A stretch of 64,000 nt of DNA, taken from NCBI GenBank assembly GCA_027919835.1, contig JANVFP010000013.1:1116001-1180000 (forward strand). Reading direction: 5' to 3'. Under the pieces are notes generated by a model. It had not been told where the DNA came from. It did not search any database and saw only the letters and a list, made by a program, of their open reading frames with translations. Each line of letters begins with the position of its first letter. Within the stretch, counting starts at the first letter, position 1. The translations under genes were made by a program, and so were the position numbers. The stretch comes from Lentinula raphanica. Lineage: Eukaryota; Basidiomycota; Agaricomycetes; Agaricales; Omphalotaceae. Shown piece by piece: positions 8,585-22,867 of the stretch.

Positions 8585-9223
8585 CAGACTCCTTCCCATC
8601 CGCTATTGCAGCTGAAAAAAATTATAATCCCAGTAAATTACCATAAATAGATAATCTTATATCTAATCATATTATCTAATCATATCTTATCGTACGTTGA
8701 ATTTTTTTAGCTGCAATAGCGACTGGCATAAATTGTATAAGCGCTTGGTGGCCTTGTTTGGTCCCAGCTTGTAGCACTGTTCGAATATCACTCAACAATG
8801 GAACTTTTGGCCACAATCTGTTCAAAGAGTCATATAGGATGCTAGTTATGTACTGTGCTGAAGGATACCTGTCTCAATTTTCAAACCAATGGGCATTTGT
8901 GAGATGGGCGCTATAAAATTGAATCCTGGAACCAAACAAGGCCACCAAGCGCTTATACAATTTATGCCAGTCGCTATTGCAGCTTAAAAAATTCAACGTT
9001 GATAAGATATGACTACATAATATGATTAGATATAAGATTAGCTATTTACGGTAACTGGGATTATAATTTTTTAAGCTGCGATAGCGGATGGGAAGGAGTC
9101 TGGCTTAAAAAATTCAACGTTGATAAGATATGATTACATAATATGATTAGATATAAGATTAGCTATTTACGGTAACTGGGATTATAATTTTTTAAGCTGC
9201 GATAGCGGATGGGAAGGAGTCTG
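8585..9223. mobile_element. Non-autonomous foldback element (MULE-like MITE)
   Basis: The left arm (8585 to about 8772) begins CAGACTCCTTCCCATCCGCT. Its reverse complement ends the right side twice, at 9102 and 9223. The arms match over about 180 bases, down to a block containing GCGCTTGGTGGCCTTGTTTGG, and flank a spacer of about 150 bases with no coding capacity. The 9-base sequence CTGTTATTA occurs immediately outside both ends (8576-8584 and 9224-9232), a target-site duplication. Long inverted repeats plus a 9-bp duplication fit Mutator-like elements. Within each arm is a smaller inverted pair (CGCTATTGCAGCT / AGCTGCAATAGCG), so the structure is nested. Confidence 0.8.
8982..9223 (+). repeat. 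Two tandem copies of a 121-bp right-arm segment
   Basis: Positions 8982-9102 are repeated at 9103-9223 with only a base or so changed (GACTACATAA versus GATTACATAA). The right terminal segment of the foldback element has been duplicated in place, so the outer copy abuts the target-site duplication. Confidence 0.85.
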
Positions 9224-9490
9224 CTGTTATTACTGAACATTCAGTGTTCTGATGGAACGGTGTAGTATGCCCTGAGTACGGCTTGAGTATATGAGAGAGG
9301 GCGAGAACGCGTTTGGGCAGTTTGGTCGACTCATGCCCAGTACTAGATGGGTATATACATGAACACGAGCCGATAGATGCACACGAGGACACATGAGGCA
9401 GAAGAATATTTTCTGTGGATTTTTCTGGGCGAAACTAGTTGTACTTACATATTGCCGCAGATTTAAGGCCTTACAGTGGGCAGCGCAAGT

Positions 9491-9580
9491 GTCTTAAATT
9501 GACAGGTGGGAGTTGAACCGTCTTGCATTGACAGATTGGGAATTGAGCCGTATTGCAGTGACAGTTACTTATTGAAGGCA
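9491..9580 (+). repeat. Three imperfect 30-bp repeats at the left edge
   Basis: Units start at about 9491, 9521 and 9551. Each carries a TTGACAG or GTGACAG core followed by a TTGAACCG/TTGAGCCG-like segment. Similar TTAAATT-plus-GACAG words occur near the right edge (22284-22301, 22505-22519, 22539-22553), so these may be recombinase or accessory-protein sites. Confidence 0.55.
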
Positions 9581-9587
9581 ATATTGA

Positions 9588-9905
9588 GAAGTGTAAATTT
9601 TTGACATCTGTTTTGAGAACTGTAAATTTTTGACATCTGTTTTGAGAACTGTAAATTTTTGACATCTGCTTTGAGAACTGTAAATTCTGGACATCTGCTT
9701 TGAGAACTGTAAATTTTTGACATCTGCTTTGAGAACTGTAAATTTTTGACATCTGTTTTGAGAACTGTAAATTTTTGACATCTGCTTTGAGAACTGTAAA
9801 TTTTTGACATCTGTTTTGAGAACTGTAAATTTTTGACATCTGCTTTGAGAACTGTAAATTCTGGACATCTGCTTTGAGAACTGTAAATTCTTGACATCTT
9901 CTTTG
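9588..9905 (+). repeat. 29-bp minisatellite, about 11 copies
   Basis: The unit is GAACTGTAAATTTTTGACAT plus CTGYTTTGA, repeated about eleven times with few substitutions (TTTTTG versus TTCTGG). Because 29 is not a multiple of three and the minus-strand unit lacks stops in every phase, all three minus frames stay open (110-148 codons). These frames are an artefact of the repeat, not genes. Confidence 0.9.
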
Positions 9906-9971
9906 TAGGCCATTCACAAGCTTGAAACGCTGTGTTTGAATTTTACAAACTCTTGTATCTGATCTTAGAAT

Positions 9972-12118
9972 CTACATTCTGTATTTCTTCTCCATTTCAG
10001 CAAGCTCTTCCAAGATCTTCTGTAAAACCTCTTTATCCTTTCCCTCAGTAACTAAACCCTCCAGCTCCGTCACTGCCCATTTAGAGGTGTCAAATATCCT
10101 ATCAGTCTTTGGCTGCAACAACTTCTCTACCTGAAGTCCAGAAACCAGACGTAGAGCATGTTGTATGATGAGAAGGTTGGAGGGACTGAAAGAAAAATCA
10201 TGCTTGTATTCTGGAAGGAGGGCTTGCATGTTGAGCAGAAGATCATCTGCTTCACGGACATAAAGTCCATCTGGGGAGGCTATTTTTTTGATGAATAGTT
10301 CCACAAGAGCAAGAACTTTAGGACAACCACAGTCTAGATGTCCATGGCGCTGTGGTATTTTTTTGCCCCTCCAGTTGACAAGGTCAGAATGGGTGGCACA
10401 TTTTTTGCCACCAACCTAGATTGGAAAGTAAATGAAGTAATCACTAGGCAGGTTGCAAAACTATAATACTTACATGGTTCTTGAGAAGTTGCATAGCCAA
10501 TTCGGGTCCACCCTCAATGGTGCCAGGGTAAGATTCCAATTTCTGCCTGGCATCCTTTGCCTTGGTTTTAGAGAGAACTATACGTTTACCAGTCTCATAA
10601 TCAAAAAACAGAATATCACCAGCCTGGTTACCTGCAACAATTATTACAGAACATATCTGTGTCTATAATATAAATACTTACCTGCAAAGGCAATTGCAGG
10701 TGCCTGAGGAAATCCTGGCTGATACGTAGGCTGAGAAGAGGTAGAATGAGCTGTAGTGATTGGGTTTAACTGTGTGACACTCCAAGTCAGTAGTGAAATA
10801 AACTTGAAATAATAACAAACATTGGTAGTGTCATCTATCTCTGGTATCTCTCTTTTCAGCCATTCCCACAGTTTGATAGCATGGTCTGGTCCTAAGTTTT
10901 CTTCTTCACCATTGATTGGCCAATCTATAGCCGTACCATCTATCTCTAATTTTTTACAGATTGATATACCTTTGATCAACAGTTGACTGGTGGCTAGGCG
11001 TAAAGAGGATGTTGGATCACCATGCCCACTTGTGGAAGGGCTAGTCTGATATTCTTTCCAAGAGTTGGCAAAAGCTTTAATGGAAGCGTATGGGAGATCA
11101 TCCTTGAACTCTGTTAAACTGTCAGAATATGACACAACATTATAACTGAAAGTGTAAAAGAAATGCACTTCAATATGCAATGTAAAAAAAAGGCACTTCA
11201 ATGAGGTGTAAAGAAGAGACACTTTCATATGAAGTGTAGAGGGAATGCACTTCAATGAAGTGTAAAAGAGAGACACTTTCATATGAAGTGTAGAAGGAAT
11301 GCACTTCATTGGGGAGTGTAAAAGAAAGACACTTCAAATGAGGTGTAGTATAATTACACTTCAATATGCAGTGTAAAAAAAAGACACTTTGATATGAAGT
11401 GTAAGAGAAATGCACTTCATTATGAAGTGTAAAGGAAAGACACTTCAAATAGGGTGTAGAAAAAACACACATCAAATGAAGTGTAAAGAAAATACAGCTT
11501 GTAGCAATGTGTCAATAAAGGAATCTTACCTTGTAAAGCCTTCTTCTTGTGCGCTTCCATGTCAAACATTGGAACATCTTCAGTATGATTAGTATTATCT
11601 AAGAAGATATCAACTTCATTTGAGTAGATTGTATTGATATACTTACTGCTAAAATCTCCAATTGTTTCGGAGGTGCCACTACTGCCACTACGGTTGATGG
11701 CACCCGCTAGTTGTTGTACTTGGAGATATCAGTTTAGAGGTAATAACAAGTTAGGCCAAGATCTCACAGGTTGGATCAATATTCATTCCAGCACCAGGTT
11801 GAGCCATGGAAGTGGTTTGAACTAGACATTGTACGTCAATCCACACTCTATCAAAAAGCCAGAGACAGTTGAGATCACGTTTAGAAATGCCTTGGATCTG
11901 AGATTGCACTTGGGCAATATCTTTGTCTAGAGTTTGAACAGTTACTGACCATAGAAATCAGATAGTATCAGAGCAATCAAAAATTGAAACGTACCTCCAG
12001 GGAATTTTTTCTCTCTCAAATTAGTGGAGGTTTTTTTGAACTTGGCACGTTTAGTTTCCAACTCCTCCAGCTGCATATTCAGGGATTCAAGGAGAGTTGC
12101 TGTAGTTTCAGTTGACAT
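9972..12118 (-). CDS. Uncharacterised element-borne protein with coiled-coil N-terminus
   Basis: Exons that join in frame are 12118-11995, about 11950-11780, about 11715-11650, about 11605-11530, about 11116-10830, about 10790-10682, about 10633-10475 and about 10417-9972. The start MSTETTATLLESLN leads into a Glu/Lys-rich coiled coil. A small conserved-looking segment LNCLWLFDRVWIDVQCL follows, then an acidic region with EIDGTAIDWP, and a middle domain with FFDYETGKRIVLSK and a GPELAMQLL helix. Near the end a cysteine/histidine cluster (KKCATHSD, then RHGHLDCGC) could bind metal. The C-terminus is a helical segment ending EMEKKYRM. I do not recognise the family. It is co-oriented with the dioxygenase and recombinase, so it is probably cargo of the same element. 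The intron near 11117-11529 contains the hairpin minisatellite. Confidence 0.65.
11150..11500. repeat. Palindromic minisatellite inside an intron
   Basis: A run of about 13-14 units of about 25 bases, each built around an imperfect palindrome of the form ACACTTCATATGAAGTGT followed by an AAAAGAAAG-type spacer. Every unit can fold on itself. It lies in the large intron of the gene on the minus strand. Some minus frames remain open through it, which I attribute to composition. Confidence 0.85.
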
Positions 12119-12249
12119 CGTTTATAATGACTGGTGTGAAAAGAAGTGTAAAAAGAATTGAAGAGTTCAGAATTCAGATAGAGGTGATGATGGTTACTGA
12201 TAACGTTAAAGGAAGCCTGATTTGTTAGTATTTGTTTGTTCAAATAAGG

Positions 12250-12860
12250 GGTGATTTTTTAACAGCTCAGTGCTGTATATGTTTTATTTTTACACATTCA
12301 TTTGAAGTGTTCAATTATGACAGCTCTCTATAGTATATGTCAAATTCTTACAGGTTCCTTCACAAGTGTCATTTTTTGACACTTCAGTGCTGTATGTGTA
12401 TAGTCTTTACACATTTGTTCAAAGTGTGCATTTATGACACCTCAGTGCTGTATGTGTTTTATTTTTACACATTTGTTTAAAGTGTGCATTTATGACAGGT
12501 CTCTATAGTATATGTCAAATTTTTACATGTTCTTTCACAAGTGTAATTTTTTTGACACCTCAGTGCTGTAAGTGTTTTATTTTTACACATTTGTTTAAAG
12601 TATGCAATTATGACAGGTCTCTATAGTATATGTCAAATTTTTACAGGTTCTTTCACAAGTGTCATTCTTTGACACCTCAGTGCTGTATGTGTATAATCTT
12701 TACACATTTGTTTAAAGTGTGCATTTATAACACCTCAGTGCTGTATATGTTTTATTTTTACACATCTGTTTAAAGTGTGCATTTATGACAGGTCTCTATA
12801 GTATATGTCAAATTTCTACATGTTCTTTCACAAGTGTAATTTTTTGACACCTCAGTATGG
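12250..12860. repeat. Higher-order tandem repeat of about 58-bp monomers
   Basis: The word CAGTGCTGTA recurs at about 12266, 12384, 12441, 12560, 12676 and 12734, with a diverged copy at 12851. The spacings are near 118, 57, 119, 116, 58 and 117. Two monomer types of about 58 bases alternate, one with CAGTGCTGTATGTGT and ACACATTTG...AAGTGT, the other with TCTATAGTATATGTCAAAT and CACAAGTGT. The palindrome ACACATTCATTTGAAGTGT at 12292-12310 links it to the intronic repeat at 11150-11500. It lies between the stop of the dioxygenase gene and the start of the uncharacterised gene. Confidence 0.85.
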
Positions 12861-12926
12861 ATGAAGAATGTCTCTGAGATTATATGGTTTGCGACAATTT
12901 TGTGTGTAATCTGAAGATAACAAAAT

Positions 12927-15900
12927 TTACAGTACAAAAACATTAGACATCCACCCATTCCCATCTTTCTGATAAGAAAATCCCTCTTTGTCAGAATGAA
13001 GTACTAAAGATGACCTAATTCCTTCATAATGAAGATTGAAATGAGTATAAGTTTTTGAAGGAAAGACAACAAAATCCCCATTTTTTACTTCAAGAGTCAA
13101 CTTGGGCTCATATAAGCATAAGTCTCCTCCAGCAAAATCACCAATCACAAGAACAATACAACCTGATCTATCACCTTTATCTCTATGAGCTGTTGTGGAG
13201 CAATTGAGATTTACCACAACACTTCTGAAAGGACGTGCTGGGGTGGAATCATAGAGAGGTACAATGTCAATCTCTGCTTCTATGTCCTCAAAAAAGTCTG
13301 AATGATGTTTGAGGGTCTATATAAAGTGATTTATTGATACCAAAAAAAGTAAGTCTCAAAAATAAACATACCTTTGCTACAACCTCTTCAATGACATCTT
13401 CTAGGCAACAGCATAAAAGATCCCATTCCTCAGCAAATGTTTGCATATCCTGAGAAGCATGGACTTGAAACTGGGAAGTATTGGTATGTTTGCCACCTTT
13501 TCTTCTCAAATACAGGGGATGAGTTCCTTTTGGAGCCAATTTTCCCTAAATATTTCAAAATATTAAAACAGCTTTTAAACAGCTATTTATTATGAAGGGG
13601 GAAGACTTACATCTGGTCCATACTTGCCAAAAAAAGTAAAATGCAAGGCAGTAAAGCCAGAAACTTCCCTTGAATTTTTGCTGACTAACTCAACCCCAGA
13701 GATAGTAGAACTTGCAGCTCTACTCCAGGCCAGTAAACTCATCAGTAGATTCTGCCTTTTATTGGAGCTCAGAGTGCTGTTGACATCCACTATGAGCTGG
13801 CCATCTTGATCTCTAATTTCCAGTCTTTGACTAGAAAAAATAAGTTAAAAGTAAGTGAAAAACAACAGCAAAAAGAAACTTACTTGGCAAAGAGAGAAGA
13901 AGGTATTTTCAACCACTTCTTATTTTTGAGGAGCTCTCCAGAATATTTGTCGTATCTGGTTTTCAACTAATATTGGTTAAAGGATGTTACAAGATTAAAA
14001 CTTTAAAAATTCTTACCTGTTCCTGCAGAGTACTCATGCTATCTACCTCAATAGCTTCGGAAGCTCCTTTTCTTTGCTTTTCAGTCCACTTTGTTCTAGC
14101 AGACTTAGAAGCAGAAAAAGGAAGTTTGGATGGAATGGAAGTTTCTTTAAACCAACTCTGAAGTTTGACTTCATCATCAGATATCTCAAAGCTATCCACA
14201 AAGTGAAAGTTGAGTTGTGGTATCTGAGAAGCAACACTCTCAGATATTCCTTGCTGAGTTAGATGACTTTGAGTGACTAGGTCAAAGCAGAAATCATCAA
14301 TGTTCTGCAAGGAACATGAATAAGATAGACTCTCAGCCCAGAGAGGTTTACTGCGTTGAAGACTAATGAAAGCTCTAGAGTTTTGTTTAGACAGCAGACA
14401 GATTTGTGAAAAAAAATCAATATACCTTGAATGGAAACTATCAAAATATCTATCACTCATCACAATGTCTTGGCAGTCAAGGAAGGTACCAGCAAGGAAG
14501 GTACCAGCAACTTCAGTTTGAGAGGAAGTTGGTGAGAAAAGGAGAGGTATTCGAAGAGGAATAGCTTTTTGGAGTTTTGAAATAGCTGGTGCAAGACGTT
14601 GGGAGACAAATGTCAGGTTCACTAATTGAAGTAAGTTTCCAAGATATAGCTTAGAAAGAGATTTTGGACTAACAAGGATCTTGAGGAAAGCGTATTTCAT
14701 TACAGAGTTCAAAAAGAACCTGAGCAACTAAAGCCTTAGACTTCAACTTTGCAGCAAGACCAGGCTGAGAGGCAATAATAACTAAGAGATAAATAGTTCC
14801 TTCAAGGAAATGTGGCTGTTAGAACAAGATAATGTCAAGAGAGATAGAATTACTCACCGGCACCAGCTAATCTTGCCCATCTTGAGCCAGCGTTAAGCCA
14901 ATCATGCATCTTCTGGCGTGATATACCCTGCTGCTCAATCTTGAGTATGGAAGGATAGGCGCTGGATATAGGTTCTTCAAGAGTCTTGTTCTCATATAAA
15001 AATCTAGAACAATCTATTAGAGAGGTAGAGAAGGGAATTTGAAGACGTACGAGTTAATTTTGGCAGCAAAAGATAGCTCACACATCATTCTAACCAAGAT
15101 GGAAGAAGCCTCAATCTTCTCTGCTCTGTTACATCTCTGAGCAAGATGAAGGAGAGAATCTGTGCTGAAAGCACAACCTTCTTCTTCCCACTTAGTACCG
15201 TAAACAATCTTACACATCTCAGCCACCCATTGATCACTCCCCCAGGAAGTTCCTCCAGTCAGCCTCAACATCAAAGCCAGACCACTGTCGGTAACATGCT
15301 TAGGAGGTCTGCGGGGCTTATCTGTAGCTTCGTAGAGGAAACCATCTTCTAAGCCCTGGGTTTCTTCACCTCCTCCCCCTGGTCCTTCCCTTCCTGCTCC
15401 ACTGACTCCTCCACCGAGTCCTCCACCTTCTCCTCCTGCTCCACCCACTCCTTCCCCAAAAGGACCACTGGCCCCTTCAGAGGAGGAAGGTGCCTGTCCA
15501 AGGTCTTCAGAAGGATCTGAGTCTGTCTCTTCTTCCAAACCCCTGCCAACCCTCCTACGTTTTCGTTGAGCTGCAGCCCCTCCTCTCCCACAGGTGTTTC
15601 GAGGGGCTGGACCAGGGTTGGGACCTTGACCAGCACCATCATCTGGACCACCCCCGGCTAGGACATTGTCTGGACCATCTCCCTCATCGTTCTCTTCTTC
15701 ACCTGCTCCACCTAAGTCTTCTTCTTCTTCTTCTTCTTCTTCAGGACGTGGACGTTTTCGAGATGAAGAAGCCCCATAGGAGCTGTCTAGAGCTTGGGGT
15801 GAATCACCTTTGTCTTGTTCATCTTGAATCAAAGATAACAAGAGATCGTCCAAGTCTTCTTCAAAAGAAGATAATGGCCAGGAGGAGGAGGGTAAACCAT

Positions 15901-17442
15901 CTGGAGCACAGCACTGGTCATCCTCCTCAGGCGTGAATACTTGCATAGGGGAAAGGGCCAGAGTGGGAGAACTGGGGGAACGTCCTACTGTTGAGGAAAG
16001 AGCCAGACTAGGTGAACAAGAGAGTGTAGACGAACAAGGGAGTGTAGGCGATCGAGCCAGCGTGGGTGATAGCGTGGGTGATCGAGCCAGCGTGGGTGAC
16101 CGAGCCAACGTAGGTGACCGAGCCAACGTAGGTGATCGTGCCAACGTAGGCGATCGTGCCAGGATGGGTGATCTAGCCAAAGTAGGGGATCTAGCCAAAG
16201 GAGCAGAATGAGCCAAAGACGGTGACCTAGCAAACTGGGATGAACGTGGCAAAAGAGCCGGCGAATGAGCAAGTTCCGTTGTAGGAGAACGACGCGTAAT
16301 CATAGGAGAATGACGCGTAAGTTCCATCGTAGGAGAACGACGCGTTAGTTCCATCGTAGGAGAACGACGCGTAAGTTCAGTCGTAGGCGTACAAGGTGAA
16401 TGTTCCTTCGTAGTCGTAGGAGAACAAGGCGAATGCGTATGGGCAGGCTGTCTAGCAGGTGGGGGTATGGGGGTATGCAGAAGCTTAGGTGAATGTGCCA
16501 GTGTGGGGGAATAAGCCAGTGTGGGGGAATGAGACAGAGGTCCTAAAGAAAGGAAAGGGATTTTTAGACAGGGTCATGAGTAGGAGAGTAAGAGTTGAAG
16601 ACAGGGGGAGCTCACCTTGGAAAGAAAGCTCAGTCAGTTCAGAAACTCCTGGGAGATCATCTTCCGCGTTTTCAACTTCGTCGGGAGCCCCTGGCCTTCC
16701 TTCTGGCACGCGATGAGTTCTGGGCGGTGACCTCTCAGAGTGTCCTTCGCTGCCTACAGTTCCAACGCTCTCCCCGCGTCGGGCAAGGGAAAGTCTTTCG
16801 CTGGGGCCGGCGATGGGACGTTGGAGCTCGAAGGGGCGTCTTAAGGGTAAATCGAGCTCGTCGAGATTCGGGAAACTCGTTTCGCGATAGTGGAGGGACG
16901 CGGAAAGACGGTCGACGTTGAATGGTCTCGGAGTGAGTTGAAGAGCGTTGGAAGACGCGGGTTCCTGCGAAAAAAGCGCGTGAGTGGGGAGAAAACCCCC
17001 TTTCCAGCCACTCACCAGAATGAGCCGACTTTCATCTACTTGCGTGGCAACATCTCTTCTTGGAGCAGGCATTAGAAGTTTGAGGGCTTGCAACAACGCG
17101 TATTCCTGTTGAAAAAAAGACGGTGTGAGTGGGAGAAAAACTTGACTTCACGCAACTCACCCGAAGACCCGAATTTTCTTCAACTTGCGTGCCTAGCTCT
17201 GTTTTCTTTGTGGAGAACGCCTCCAAGCCTGTAGCAGGGGTCCTAGGGTCCAGATGAGAGGTTGGAAGAGAGGAGGACAGTCCAGGGTTTTCAGAAAGGG
17301 TAGGCCCAGGACTTGAAAGCCGAAGTCGCGTTTGAATCGGCGTCACCAAATCCCTCAAGTCGTCCGGTAGGTCAGGACCTAGCCTGGAGAAAAGTCCCAG
17401 CAAGGAACGAAGCTGAGAAGAGGTGAAAAAAATTTGAGACAT
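12927..17442 (-). CDS. TET/JBP-type 2-oxoglutarate/Fe(II) dioxygenase
   Basis: A large multi-exon gene. Well-placed exons are 17442-17161, 17105-17016 and 16974-16616. A long fourth exon runs from about 16543 to 15050, followed by at least six more to the stop at 12927. The N-terminal half is low complexity: Ser/Pro repeats (LARSPT type), an acidic block with a poly-Glu run, an RKRRR basic patch likely to be a nuclear signal, and a Gly-rich stretch. A helical middle region follows. The C-terminal exon has the double-stranded beta-helix signature of TET/JBP oxygenases: the metal-binding HxD in TTAHRDKGDRSG, IGDFAGGDLCL, NGDFVVFPS, and the distal His and 2-oxoglutarate Arg in THFNLHYEGIRSSLVLH. 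In this family the reaction is stepwise oxidation of 5-methylcytosine in DNA. Activity here is inferred from intact motifs. Basidiomycete TET genes are linked to KDZ transposons; this one sits with a tyrosine recombinase. Confidence 0.85.
15985..16205 (-). repeat. 18-bp coding repeat (Ser-Pro array) in the dioxygenase gene
   Basis: Tandem 18-base units encode ARSPTL/ARSPIL hexapeptides, about nine in a row, within a larger Ser-Pro-rich stretch extending to about 16540. Such arrays are usual phosphorylation targets and may expand or contract by slippage. Confidence 0.85.
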
Positions 17443-17514
17443 GAGAGAAAAAAAGGGAGGCTTGGGGCGCTACCACTAACGGTGAGGAAGCGAGTTGGTC
17501 GTCGGGCGCTTAGC

Positions 17515-17574
17515 CTGGACGCTCAAAAAGGCAAACCTTTCCAGCGCGAAAGGTTTGCCTTTTTGAGCGTCCAG
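17515..17574. repeat. Perfect 27-bp inverted repeat (hairpin) before the dioxygenase start
   Basis: The left arm 17515-17541 begins CTGGACGCTCAAAAAGGCAA. The right arm 17548-17574 is its exact reverse complement, and the loop CAGCGC has six bases. It lies 73 bases upstream of the ATG at 17442, so it is in the promoter or 5' leader. A perfect stem of this length in an otherwise diverged region suggests selection or recent origin. Confidence 0.95.
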
Positions 17575-18420
17575 AAAGAAAGCTGTGCCAGCGCTTCTGT
17601 GGTCCAGATTAGCGCCTCGACTTTTTGGATAAGGCGAAGTTCCTGCACAGAGATCAGCCAGCCTCTCAAGAAAGTGTAAGACTGGAGACCGTTGGTGGTC
17701 TCCCTTGCCTCCTCTGTCCACATTCACGTTCTACACCCAGGGGAGAGAGAAAGACACCGAAAGGAGGACGAGGTAAGAGACGAAGGCGGAAGCTATACAA
17801 CACAGACGACGAATTCGAAGCCTGCAGGCCTGATGCTTCGACTCTTCGTCTTCCGTGTCTTCTTCGTTGTCGATGTCGTCTTCGTTGTCGATGTCGTCTT
17901 CGTTGTCGATGTCGTCTTCGTCTTCGGTGTCGTCCTCGGAGCTCTCGGAACGATCAGGAGCGGGTTCCTCGTCGGCGGTAATCGAGGGCTGATTCTGGTG
18001 TGAGTATTTGTGTGGGGAGAGGGAGGAGGGGTGTGGGAAGGAGGGGTGTATGAGGATGGACAGGTGTATGAGGATGGGAAGGAGGATGGGAAGGAGGAGG
18101 GGCAGGGGGAGTCGAACGGAGACGGAGATGCGCAGTCTAATGGGTCTACCTGGAAGAGTAAGGTTCAAGAAGAGAAAGTGGAGATTGAAAACAAGCCGGG
18201 GAAGACAAATCACGATCACGATCCAGATCCCTATCCCAAACACAAACACAAACTCAATCCAATCTGTCTTCAGTATCAGGTACCTCCCTCATCATCATCT
18301 ACCCCATCACTGTATCCTCCTCTTCAACCCCTTTGTCCACGTTCTCCCTTTCCTAATCCTCATCCTCTTTCTTTAGGCTCCATCTTTATCTCCAACATCA
18401 ATCTAAGACAAGGATGACAA
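17575..18420. other. Upstream region with 18-bp repeats and an acidic minus-strand frame
   Basis: A minus-strand frame (17731-18249) contains an acidic stretch with EDDIDN hexapeptides produced by three 18-base units at 17862-17915, preceded by SITADEEPAPDRSESSEDD. The acidic part looks like real protein. The rest of the frame is hydrophobic or proline noise, and I cannot join it to a start or to the dioxygenase. It may be an unplaced exon or relic. Confidence 0.35.
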
Positions 18421-18449
18421 GGGCGTGAAGAGAAGAGACAACAACCACG

Positions 18450-19430
18450 TAACAAGTTCTTGAAGATGGAAGGTAGACGACGACGATGACCTAGAGAACC
18501 CCGATGGACCTACGAACCAATGACCGACCGACAACAACTCTACTACCTACGACTACTCTGACTATTAGAGAACCCCGATGACTACTACAACCTCCTCGAT
18601 AGCGTTCTGGACTGCAAGTACTGCACTGTTCTTGACCTCAAGAGAGCATACAGCCACCTCTACAACCGAAATGAACCCCTACAGACGACAACAGACAACG
18701 ATCCGACACACGACGACAACACACGATGCTCAAGACAACGACTCTAACACTGCAACCGAAATGAACCCCTACAGACGACAACAGACAACGATCCGACACA
18801 CGACGACGACACACGACGACGACACACGACGACGACACACGACACACGACGACGACACACCGACACACGACGACAACACACCGACACACGACGACAACAC
18901 ACCGACACACGATGCTCAAGACAACGACTCTAACACTGCGAGAGAACTCCGAGAGACTACGATGAATAACGACGACCACGAAGAATACAACATCTATGAC
19001 TTACTAGTTATTCACCGTAAGATATCTCATTACGAGTCTTTGCAGACTGCCTCGACACAAGGTAATAGATCTCTGTCTTCAAAGGAGGGAAGAACATCTT
19101 TTCCAATTACTGATTCCAATTCCTCTTGGACTTTTCTTTGAACCTCAGGATACAACAAGGAACAAAATCACTACGATTAAGACCTACAACGTGACAAGGA
19201 AGGCCGACAACACTCAGACTGACAAACCGACTACAACTACAGATACGACTACAACTACAGACACACCGATTGAGGAAGACGCCGACCGACCTACAACTAC
19301 GATGCTCCAACCGAAGATAAGTACTAAGATGTCGACTACGACTACAAATATCTACTACTGCTATTCTCTCTGACAGCAGACAACAGCAGACAATGACTCC
19401 GACTAAGGATGAACCCGACCGTTATCCTCG
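18450..19430 (+). pseudogene. Possible relic of a Ty3-type reverse transcriptase, broken by simple repeats
   Basis: In one frame near 18585-18680 the translation includes LLDSVLDCKYCTVLDLKRAY, which resembles the reverse-transcriptase segment with a VLDL core (compare the KYFTxLDLxxAY pattern of Ty3/gypsy elements). The frame is then swamped by repeats of ACGACGACAC type (18770-18920) and a duplicated block (ACCGAAATGAACCCCTACAG at 18667 and 18758). Downstream debris is open but uninterpretable. I give it as an old, broken element at low confidence. Confidence 0.3.
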
Positions 19431-19878
19431 TCTGCCGAACTTTATGTACATACCCATCCATAGGTTATCAACTGTTCTAGCATACACCCATACGGTGGTC
19501 ATAGATTGTTTTTCTTAGATACCAACTCATCTTAGTATGTTTGCTACACCGCCTCAAACATGTATTAGAGAAATAACATATTCGAGTGTTAGTGAAAGCG
19601 TTCATCTGGATGGCAAAAATTTTGAAATTCTCTTAAATTCTGCTTAAATTCTGCTTAAATTCTGCTTAAATTTATGATGATATGCTGCATAGTCGCCACA
19701 TAGTAAGCTACATAAGAGGTGTAAATTTAAGACAGTAGCCATAGTGCTTTTTCTACTGGTTAAGGCTTGGCTCACCACTCACTTTTTATGGTTATGCTGC
19801 AACTTATGCAAGCTGAGTAGGTTGATAAAATCATAGAGCATGGATTTGAACGTATTATCATTCTAATTCTAAGGTACC

Positions 19879-22145
19879 CTATTTTCGTCTCCTACTTTTG
19901 GCTTCACCCCTAGCCTTTCTGGCTTCCCTCACCGCATGTAAAAGTTTGGTATAATGAAAACGTAAACCAGGAAAGGAAATGTTGAAGCTATCGTAACAGC
20001 CTTGGTGATAAACAGAAAACTCCTCATAGACAAAGCGTATGTTGCTGAGCTTAACAGCTTCAGACTTGTAGTCCTTCACTTGGAAAAGATGACGCCAGTC
20101 TTTGAGTGGTGTCATAAGGCCACGTCCAGTATCACCTTCTTCCCAATACCTCACAACATCATCCAAACTGTTGACTTCTGGTATACGACTTGGTTTTTTT
20201 GGTTGAGAGTGAGCTGGTGGTGGTGGGACGGTAGACGTAGATGGTGGCTGTGGCTGGGTAGGGAATGGTGGAGGAGGTGGGGTAGGGATAGGGAACGGTG
20301 GAGGTGGTGGGGTAGGGATAGGGAACGGTGGAGGTGGTGGGGTAGGGAACGGTGGCAGCATTGGGGTAGGTGTAGATGGTGGTGGTGGTGTAGACAGTAT
20401 CGCTAGTTTAGTAGGTATGAGTCTAGACGGTTGTAATTAGGGTAAAAGTAAACTTACCACGTAGTGAATCAGAGTCAAGAATTCTCTGTTTTGCTGGTGT
20501 GGCTGGTGGAGTAAGCTGGTAGACGATGTCCTCAAATTTCTTCATCATTCTATACTCCAAAGATAGAATATCGTCTCTAGAAAGAGCATCCCCTGTGTTA
20601 CCAGTCCCCATGAACGTATCATGTCTAGCACTGGCACGGTCTGGCATCATGATATCCGTGAAGCCCTCCTCGTAAGCCATTAGCTCATCCAGTAGATAAC
20701 GCATTATGGTACCAACCTAAAGAAAATTAAAGTTCAGTCCTCCAAACTACAGGACATGCAAGAAATAACAAACATTTTCGTTTGAGGACCAACCTCCCCA
20801 CCATTTCACGGCCTTCAAACTCCATTTATGATCAGCCCACATGAAGCGATATTGAGCACCACCCCTTCTGAAACAATGAGTCGTAAACTTTCCCCTTCTT
20901 CCGCTCATCAAACCTGAAGCATCCACTATCCTTTCCAGCAAATTCTCTATACCCATACGACTCGTATTTTCCCCAAACTTCAGCTGCCCAGTAGAAGCAA
21001 TGCCTGGAAAGACATAATCACTATCCATCAACGGTCTCTGGAGCAGAGCCTGGAGATGCTTCATCCAAGTCGTCATATGGGTATAGCAATCGAACTCAGG
21101 ATGTTGAGGATTGTGAGGTATACGATACGCTTGAACTAAGTTGTGAAAGTTCAGAAAACTGTGACTAAGGTTCGAGGAGTCCTGTAACTCACCTTTGTTG
21201 GGATCCTTATTTGTTTTCCTAAAAATCAAGTGAAATTCAACGTAGCTCACACCAGAGTCGGAAACCAGATTGAGCTTCAAGTCTTTGACCATGAAATGTA
21301 TGAGTTCATCATTCCTTTCCAACGTCAGTCACTTTCAAGAGAAACTCCAGACGTTAGGTACATTCTTGTCTCACCTTGTCCACAAGTTGAAAGCTGTTGA
21401 AGAGAACGCCTTGAAATACAATCGTTGTGTTAGAGTGAATTCTTCACTCCCTCCACAAGAGTCTAGATAGTCGAACAGAATCTTGAGGTCAGCGGGAAGC
21501 ATGGGAAGAGCCTGAGTATAGGTGGAAGTCCTGTTCTCTCTGTTCTTGAGCGACTCATAATAGGCTTTGTAGTCAGTTTCGAAGACTGGATTACCCTCCC
21601 ACTCCAGAGAATGGAAGTTGAACTTCCAGAACTCTCCCTGGCATCCAAGAACTCTGTCAAGAATGATAAAGGCTCAATATATAAGATGAACCATATATCA
21701 CATACCGTTCAAAGTAGTCTTTGAAAGCTGACCTTATGCCCTCAGCAGTAGAGAACTTGAGCCCTTGATGATCACACTTGTAGGCTGTCAGCAATCTAAG
21801 AGCCATAGGCGTATACTTGGAAATACTGTCGAAAGCATGAGCCAGCCCTTCAGTGTCCACAGAGTTGTCTGAGTCCTCGGAAGCATCAAAGTTAGCATTG
21901 GCAGCCCATTCTAGCACCCACTTCTTCCCACTCTTCACATATCCAGCATATCCCTTCTTGGTACTGGAGGATTTATACCAGTCCTCGGTTGTTTGGTAGC
22001 TGTGAGAGAGTAGTTGGGAGGCAGAGGGGTTAATTTCCGTTGAACCTTCTTCAGAAGAGACCTCCTGAGCTTTCTGGCGTCTTTTTCGAGGAGTTGAATG
22101 AGAGGAAGAAACAGGATTAAGCCTAGAGTTTCTTTGAGGTGGCAT
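19879..22145 (-). CDS. Crypton-type tyrosine recombinase with GCR1_C-like tail
   Basis: The ATG at 22145 gives MPPQRNSRLNPV and a basic PRKRRQK nuclear signal. Introns near 21660-21707, 21321-21378, 21135-21190 and 20706-20773, and one near 20410-20450, restore one frame. The catalytic set of tyrosine recombinases is visible in order: Arg in LWTRNDELIHF, the HxxR box as THCFRRGGAQYR, the WWGGWS box, and the nucleophile Tyr in TIMRYLLDEL. The intron removed before that segment (GTTTGT...TTTAG) brings box and tyrosine together. After it come a proline-rich hinge with PPPPPFPIPT repeats and a terminal domain (VRYWEEGDTGRG, PLKDW, then a basic KSRRRK end) like the GCR1_C DNA-binding domain known from Cryptons. 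In Cryptons this enzyme cuts and joins DNA through the tyrosine. It is the first gene at the right edge and points into the block. Confidence 0.85.
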
Positions 22146-22154
22146 GGAAGACAC

Positions 22155-22867
22155 CTAGTACGAAGACGAAGAGGTGAGAGCGTTAGAAGCAAGATGTAGT
22201 GAATGGAACAGAAGTCCATGTCTCGAAGTGCTGAGCTCAGACAGATCCTAAAGGTGTTGAATTTGAACAGATAAGGTAGAGAGTGTCAAATTCAGACAGA
22301 TGTAAGCCTCTGAATCAGATCGAGCAAGTTATTCAACAAGTGTCTTAATTCTACGTTTGAGATTAGGAGTGTAAATGAAAGACGGTACTGGAGAAAGTGT
22401 TGGGCTGCTGCACTTCTGAAGGGATATGTAAAAGGTAGACGGTTCAGTTGAGTTTTGAGCCTCTGGCGCAGGTGTGAGAGCTGGTTCGCCGCTGGAGGCT
22501 AGTGTTTAAATCTGACATGTGCCATTTAGCGGCGTGGGCTTAAATTCGGACGGTTTATGACCTACATATTGAAGTATGAACTGTATGAAAGACCAGGGAG
22601 ACACCTCTTGATGAATAGGAGTATTTACGTAAATAGATCACCTCGTTGTCAGTTGCTCAAAGAGAATCCGGTCCTTCTCCTTGTCTTTTAACAATGCTTC
22701 TTTGATCAACAAACTCTTTTCTCTCCTCTCTGATCGCCTTTTCTTTCACATCTTTCTTTTCTTTCCTGCTCAGTTGGTGAAAGTTGCCCGTCTGCTGAAC
22801 ATATTAATCCCCGTCTTTCTCTTTCTTGCACTGTCACAATCCATCTCTCTTCGACCTTCGAGCAACG
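22155..22867. other. Right edge of the accessory block
   Basis: No gene. It contains the 12-base word CAAGTGTCTTAA at 22337-22348, several AAATT-plus-GACAG-type words (22259-22272, 22284-22301, 22505-22519, 22539-22553) and ACCTACATATTG at 22560-22571. From about 22600 the sequence becomes the pyrimidine-rich promoter of the next rightward gene. Confidence 0.5.

Follow-up and report, generated by a model that had tools for sequence, protein, structure and literature searches.

Two kinds of described transposon stand close to the element reported here. Cryptons carry terminal direct repeats of 4-6 bp and have been proposed to move through a circular intermediate, and many elements of the CryptonS group end in TATGG, according to the accessible text of PMC3212892. 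The ten transposon lineages that Kojima 2025 names as carrying TET genes (TET+) use DDD/E transposases or, in the case of Helitron, HUH/Y1, and an anti-silencing role has already been proposed for TET in such transposons (PMC12730594, in the parts available). Here we describe an element of 13,122 bp within a stretch of 64,000 nucleotides from Lentinula raphanica (contig JANVFP010000013.1 or C13, positions 1116001-1180000), which we call the window and in whose numbering coordinates without a contig name are given; the genome comprises 49.06 Mb in 75 contigs. The element is complete and encodes, in three intact spliced genes, a tyrosine recombinase (YR), a TET/JBP-like dioxygenase, related to the TET enzymes that take methylation marks off DNA, and a third protein, P3, all on the minus strand. 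It is best read, and probably so, as a YR transposon equipped with its own demethylation module.

The element lies on the minus strand and extends from 9447 to 22568, including the TATGT motif found at both ends. These limits were set by comparison with copies on contigs C3, C27 and C50, and the edges given in the original prediction, 9443 and 22571, proved right to within 4 bp. At the 5' end, on the YR side, TATGT (22564-22568, minus strand) is common to all four copies; at the 3' end it occupies 9447-9451 (minus strand) and is common to all three copies that have a 3' end. The 5' ends of the four copies (window, C3, C27, C50) align as TATGTAGGTCATA and the 3' ends of three (window, C3, C27) as CAATATGT, and at either end the bases just outside differ from copy to copy. 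The aligned copy ends show no flank duplication beyond TATGT, and terminal inverted repeats are absent, 4 of 20 positions agreeing when the termini are compared in that way. In the C50 copy a 3' end could not be recognised: over 34 bp, the closest local alignment with that of C27 agrees at 23/34 positions. When up to three mismatches are allowed, the 3' end pattern occurs three times in the 49 Mb of the genome and its reversed control not once; a search with the 5' end region returned the same four genomic places.

Genome searches in which the half containing the YR and the left half served as queries revealed a second copy of the element, full-length and colinear, at C3:1929843-1955242. It is about 97% identical to the window copy in the main blocks (96.8-97.7%) and has the same three genes in the same order between the same ends, which bears out the proposal that they move together as a recombinase with cargo. 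The C3 copy is enlarged by two insertions, each bounded by its own inverted repeats: one of 4 kb at window position 22109-22119, inside YR exon 1, and one of 7.8 kb at 11093-11103, inside a P3 exon. Window segment 16012-20207 and C3:1936065-1940899 are 66-88% identical, below the ~97% of the remaining element, and the difference could have arisen because diverged elements recombined or because repeats evolve fast. The relatives on C27 (C27:290263-300211) and C50 are more distant, with 66-84% identity in matching blocks. The element thus recurs with precise limits in unrelated surroundings, and its mobility is well supported. An origin of the window and C3 copies by segmental duplication instead of transposition would agree with there being only two near-identical copies and with the lack of an empty site in this genome, seen from the fact that the joined window flanks match only their own places, besides short repeats in one flank; it is nevertheless very improbable, since the 5' end is identical to the base in two diverged relatives, as is the 3' end in one of these, and the flanks of all copies are unrelated.

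The YR gene (19879-22145, minus strand) stands at the right edge of the element and reads inward, its ATG 423 bp from the 5' end. Hand splicing gave six exons (22145-21706, 21653-21375, 21314-21193, 21135-20774, 20716-20458 and 20402-19879) and an intact frame of 661 amino acids, 98% identical across its full length to database record P0005. The catalytic boxes recognised earlier in this gene are upheld by an alignment of 28 relatives, in which H367 is invariant and R240, R370, W393 and Y408 are nearly so (P0005 numbering). A homology search gave 178 proteins at E<=0.001 among 7995 candidates scored, and the best 120 of the 178 belong by name mostly to Agaricomycetes and Mortierellomycotina. 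Matches to described families are weak: Pfam Phage_integrase gives E 0.037 for one YR exon and is matched in 3 of the 28 relatives, and GCR1_C is weakly matched in two of them (best E 0.074) and not by the window YR at E<=1. DUF3435 is likewise without a match to the window YR at E<=1, one of the 28 relatives reaching E 0.064, and a sequence search of PDB with the YR found no credible match (Cre at E 0.43). Window and C3 copies were compared codon by codon, exon by exon, with the best match of each exon only (without bases 1-26 of YR exon 1, 1-195 of the last YR exon and 1-342 of modelled dioxygenase exon 1), and the aligned C3 codons of the three genes contain no stop codon. For the YR, 23 of 367 synonymous and 5 of 1379 nonsynonymous sites differ; to judge from the resulting ratio of nonsynonymous to synonymous rates (dN/dS 0.06, Fisher p 5e-12), the gene is under purifying selection between these copies.

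The dioxygenase gene occupies 12927-17442 on the minus strand. Nine exons were modelled from 16354 to 12927 (992 amino acids); P0125, the database prediction for the C3 dioxygenase with 1197 amino acids, aligns back to window position 17442, so that the gene probably starts there. The catalytic exon (12930-13316) contains the HRD motif, the distal histidine and the arginine expected of the TET-type enzyme that had been recognised here, as residues H44, D46, H92 and R101, which are invariant in a five-sequence alignment. Its best family match is Pfam Tet_JBP with E 6.5e-6; three of four scanned relatives match Tet_JBP weakly (E 0.0019-0.027) and P0126 has no match. Between the window and C3 copies 27 of 586 synonymous and 17 of 2006 nonsynonymous sites differ (dN/dS 0.18, p 3e-8), so by this measure the dioxygenase, too, is under purifying selection, and the motifs point to a putative enzyme with TET/JBP-like activity. 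The protein could instead act on another substrate (RNA, protein or a small molecule) or serve the host as ordinary cargo, as the sub-threshold Tet_JBP matches and the likewise weak match to the general family of 2-oxoglutarate- and Fe(II)-dependent (2OG-Fe(II)) oxygenases would allow; we regard this as rather unlikely, since Tet_JBP is the best family match and TET/JBP genes are carried by related transposons.

The P3 gene (9972-12118, minus strand, eight exons spliced by hand) encodes 467 amino acids without a known domain, the best Pfam match being E 0.13, and the protein is thus as unrecognised as when first noted. A cysteine/histidine cluster (KKC-x-THS...GHL-x-CGC) is kept in four relatives. 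The P3 search returned four proteins, all from L. raphanica, among which is the partial record of the window P3 itself. Two of the other three are on contigs equal in length to one that holds a YR match of the same strain series, 62527 for EV360 and 86866 for F5880, so that P3 and YR seem to lie together in these strains as well. The AlphaFold model of P3 (first alignment row P0001) has a predicted local distance difference test score (pLDDT) of 46.3, too poor for use.

The base composition of the element points to methylation. In 2-kb intervals starting at 10-14 kb the observed/expected ratio (O/E) of CpG is 0.10-0.27, whereas over 48 overlapping intervals outside the element its median is 0.90 and its lowest value 0.76; for GpC the ratio in the intervals starting at 10-14 kb is 0.79-1.06. 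Between the window and C3 copies 41 of 253 CpG differ (30 by transitions) versus 18 of 633 GpC, and the fifteen dinucleotides other than CpG have difference rates of 0.019-0.047. The same blocks are CpG-depleted in the C3 copy, its two insertions standing at 0.83 and 0.81. Judged by composition and substitutions, this is the pattern left behind when methylated CpG is deaminated, a process that may explain some of the AT richness of the left half of the element (GC 0.33-0.42). That half had been noted before together with repeats, which correspond to a 29-bp tandem array of 11 copies near the 3' end (9584-9905) and to tandem arrays at 11150-11496 and, between dioxygenase and P3, at 12254-12856. 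The segment 16001-20000, which takes in the 5' portion of the dioxygenase gene together with the space between this gene and the YR, has a CpG O/E near 1 (0.92-1.01, intervals starting at 16-18 kb), and in the C27 relative the ratio is 1.05 at C27:294263-296262, adjoining its dioxygenase. Local protection from methylation could explain the CpG-rich segment; so could another origin or composition of the sequence, because the segment differs between copies and holds simple repeats. A separate observation concerns C50:182000-190000, adjoining the truncated C50 copy, where a CpG O/E of 0.06-0.16 is the strongest depletion among the stretches measured.

The properties described above suggest the following course of events. 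The YR would recombine the two TATGT ends, releasing a circle, and the circle would recombine with a TATGT in the target, leaving one TATGT at each end of the element and no further duplication. The dioxygenase would oxidise methylated bases on the element, or more widely, and thereby ease silencing by CpG methylation, and P3 would be an accessory protein of the YR lineage. For the dioxygenase, an anti-silencing role is the best account that we infer from the sequences, the trace that suggests an effect on methylation being the CpG decay. Several observations weigh against the view that the YR transposon brings a demethylation module of its own. The Tet_JBP score of 25.9 bits is below the curated cut-off of 34.9, as is every match obtained with this family; sequence searches of PDB with the dioxygenases gave no match to any TET; and the AlphaFold model of the dioxygenase family (first alignment row P0126), with pLDDT 35.3, is too poor for use. 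The element is heavily CpG-depleted despite carrying the dioxygenase, and any protection is therefore incomplete. P3 differs at 6 of 303 synonymous and 12 of 1077 nonsynonymous sites between the window and C3 copies, and its dN/dS of 0.56 (p 0.25) shows no significant constraint and is indistinguishable from neutral. To these come the lack of an empty site in the genome and the fact that three of 14 YR loci (on C14, C15 and C19) are without a dioxygenase nearby. A second YR family is only mildly depleted of CpG (0.66-0.99), and the notion of methylation having shaped all these elements alike gains nothing from it.

A YR transposon with a demethylation module nevertheless remains the reading we prefer, and the YR relatives elsewhere in the genome bear on how the module was acquired. 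The expectation that the same gene order would recur holds for C3 and fails for C27 and C50, which have another dioxygenase, with P3 inverted in C27 and undetected in C50. The dioxygenase of the window, which we call type A, was not detected in these two relatives. Both have a different 2OG-Fe(II) dioxygenase gene (type B) that runs in the opposite direction to the YR gene, at C27:293640-294209 and, with an in-frame stop, at C50:181028-181492. Profiles of types A and B align weakly over the region of the HxD motif and the distal histidine (P 9.7e-5, probability 58%). A KDZ transposase lies within 6 kb at 8 of the 12 loci that are at least 60% identical to the C27 dioxygenase gene (a count that leaves out C27, C50 and three short pieces, two of them in counted loci and one of 47 amino acids at C53:107693), and this indicates where the C27 gene came from; among the KDZ matches listed, none is within 100 kb of the C27 YR. 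We propose that these elements acquired or swapped their dioxygenases on separate occasions, the window and C3 copies having type A and C27 and C50 a KDZ-like type B.

The pairing of YR and dioxygenase is found at further places. Ten additional YR loci in the genome show weak matches that span 46-89 residues at the HxxR box. At seven of them a type B gene is found 1.7-1.8 kb away; stretches within 2.5 kb of such a gene make up no more than 1% of the genome. Of the 14 YR loci obtained by merging the rows of two YR searches, 11 have a dioxygenase within 8 kb, and the three that lack one are all among the ten weak matches. Three of the seven (L051-L053) were read and are mutual relatives, 66-86% identical in matching pieces; a binomial tail for the closeness of YR and dioxygenase therefore overstates independence, and we count at least three pairings and not 11 independent events. 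In the protein at L053:4052-4996, HSFRRGG is followed further on, in the same frame, by a tyrosine. The second YR family with a dioxygenase is represented by C24:534000-544500 (L055, L052) and C38:402800-413000 (L054, L053), which have 7 kb in common at 86% identity as well as a common right end; homology continues leftward at 72-74%, so that the left boundary is not fixable. Near the right end this family has a near-perfect 38-bp palindrome, and to its left lies a gene with a sequence reminiscent of XPG/PIN nucleases.

Dioxygenase genes are abundant in the genome: 46 rows of type A (collapsed by hand from 83 exon rows, with one C3 gene counted twice) and 87 of type B (collapsed from 91). The proportion within 10 kb of a KDZ match listed is 2 of 46 for type A and 26 of 87 for type B. 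Such abundance would make it easy for a dioxygenase gene to enter a YR element by chance, for example as a fragment of some other TET+ transposon, and to be carried along without benefit; the C27 gene is close to KDZ-linked genes and type A is absent from C27 and C50, as hitchhiking of this kind would have it. We hold it to be unlikely in view of the dN/dS of 0.18 between the window and C3 dioxygenases and of the recurrence of the YR-dioxygenase pairing in separate YR lineages. The pairings number at least three: this YR lineage occurs with type A and also with a KDZ-like type B, and the second YR family with type B. Mushroom YR transposons might form a general, so far unlisted TET-carrying class, in which the anti-methylation enzyme would be an interchangeable module that keeps a CpG-rich segment at its own gene unmethylated. 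This generalisation is tentative, and we lean slightly away from it. If it were true, a silenced transposon could pick up an anti-methylation module whatever its chemistry of movement.

Two features next to the element copies may be mentioned. Just outside the left end, at 8585-8711 and 8982-9223, are repeat units of ~121 bp in opposite orientations; the unit recurs widely in the genome, often as inverted pairs ~400 bp apart, and looks like a short inverted-repeat element resembling miniature inverted-repeat transposable elements. A predicted tRNA-like gene (C3:1955313-1955411, L017:2313-2411) lies 71 bp past the 3' end of the C3 copy, as a single case.

Placed by its ends and catalytic residues, the element is to be classed as a Crypton-like YR DNA transposon. 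With CryptonF and CryptonS, in the accessible description (PMC3212892), it shares the YR as sole recognised mobility enzyme, an intron-rich gene, the R..HxxR..Y set, the lack of inverted repeats and short terminal direct repeats, here TATGT; it differs in its length of 13 kb, in its two further genes, and in that GCR1_C, a domain of CryptonF, is only hinted at. No reverse transcriptase as in DIRS/Ngaro elements was matched among 10 scanned frames and the three spliced element proteins, shorter frames not being scanned. The captain of a Starship belongs to the DUF3435 family. Starships resemble the element in having a recombinase at the 5' edge that reads inward with cargo behind it, but the window YR has no DUF3435 match and the element measures 13 kb, compared with 42-606 kb for basidiomycete Starships (PMC13066641, text available in part); a Starship was therefore rejected, DUF3435 being missing. 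The C27 relative's dioxygenase is closest to mostly KDZ-linked genes, a likeness to transposons with KDZ and TET/JBP, which Iyer et al. in 2014 reportedly treated, possibly with mention of YR genes. A KDZ transposase just outside the three genes, which the original prediction had named as a finding that would speak against it, was not seen: among the matches listed the nearest is 168 kb from the window element, and 710, 104 and 34 kb from the YRs on C3, C27 and C50. A KDZ transposon was thus rejected for lack of a transposase in or beside the element among the matches listed, transposases of the other known lineages not having been searched genome-wide.

Like the fungal TET+ transposons, the element combines a transposon with an intact TET/JBP-type frame; it differs in using a YR where those use DDD/E or HUH/Y1 enzymes (PMC12730594, as far as available). 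The words Crypton, tyrosine recombinase and Lentinula do not occur in the main text of Kojima 2025 (PMC12730594), nor do the first two in the accessible text of a 2026 review of fungal DNA methylation that cites this survey (PMC13297926). Among the titles and opening lines of abstracts that literature searches listed, we found no paper on a Crypton or YR element with a dioxygenase or TET gene, the literature covered mostly excluding subscription journals. Whereas TET+ transposons as such are known, what appears new against the available text of the 2025 survey is a TET/JBP-like gene, under selection, in a mechanistic class absent from it. Separate gain of TET/JBP by a recombinase-driven class would mean that evolution had taken the same step once more, independently, and would be good circumstantial evidence for a service of the enzyme to the element. 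With one intact and one interrupted copy, CpG decay and a CpG-rich segment in the same genome, the anti-silencing idea is directly testable here by methylation sequencing.

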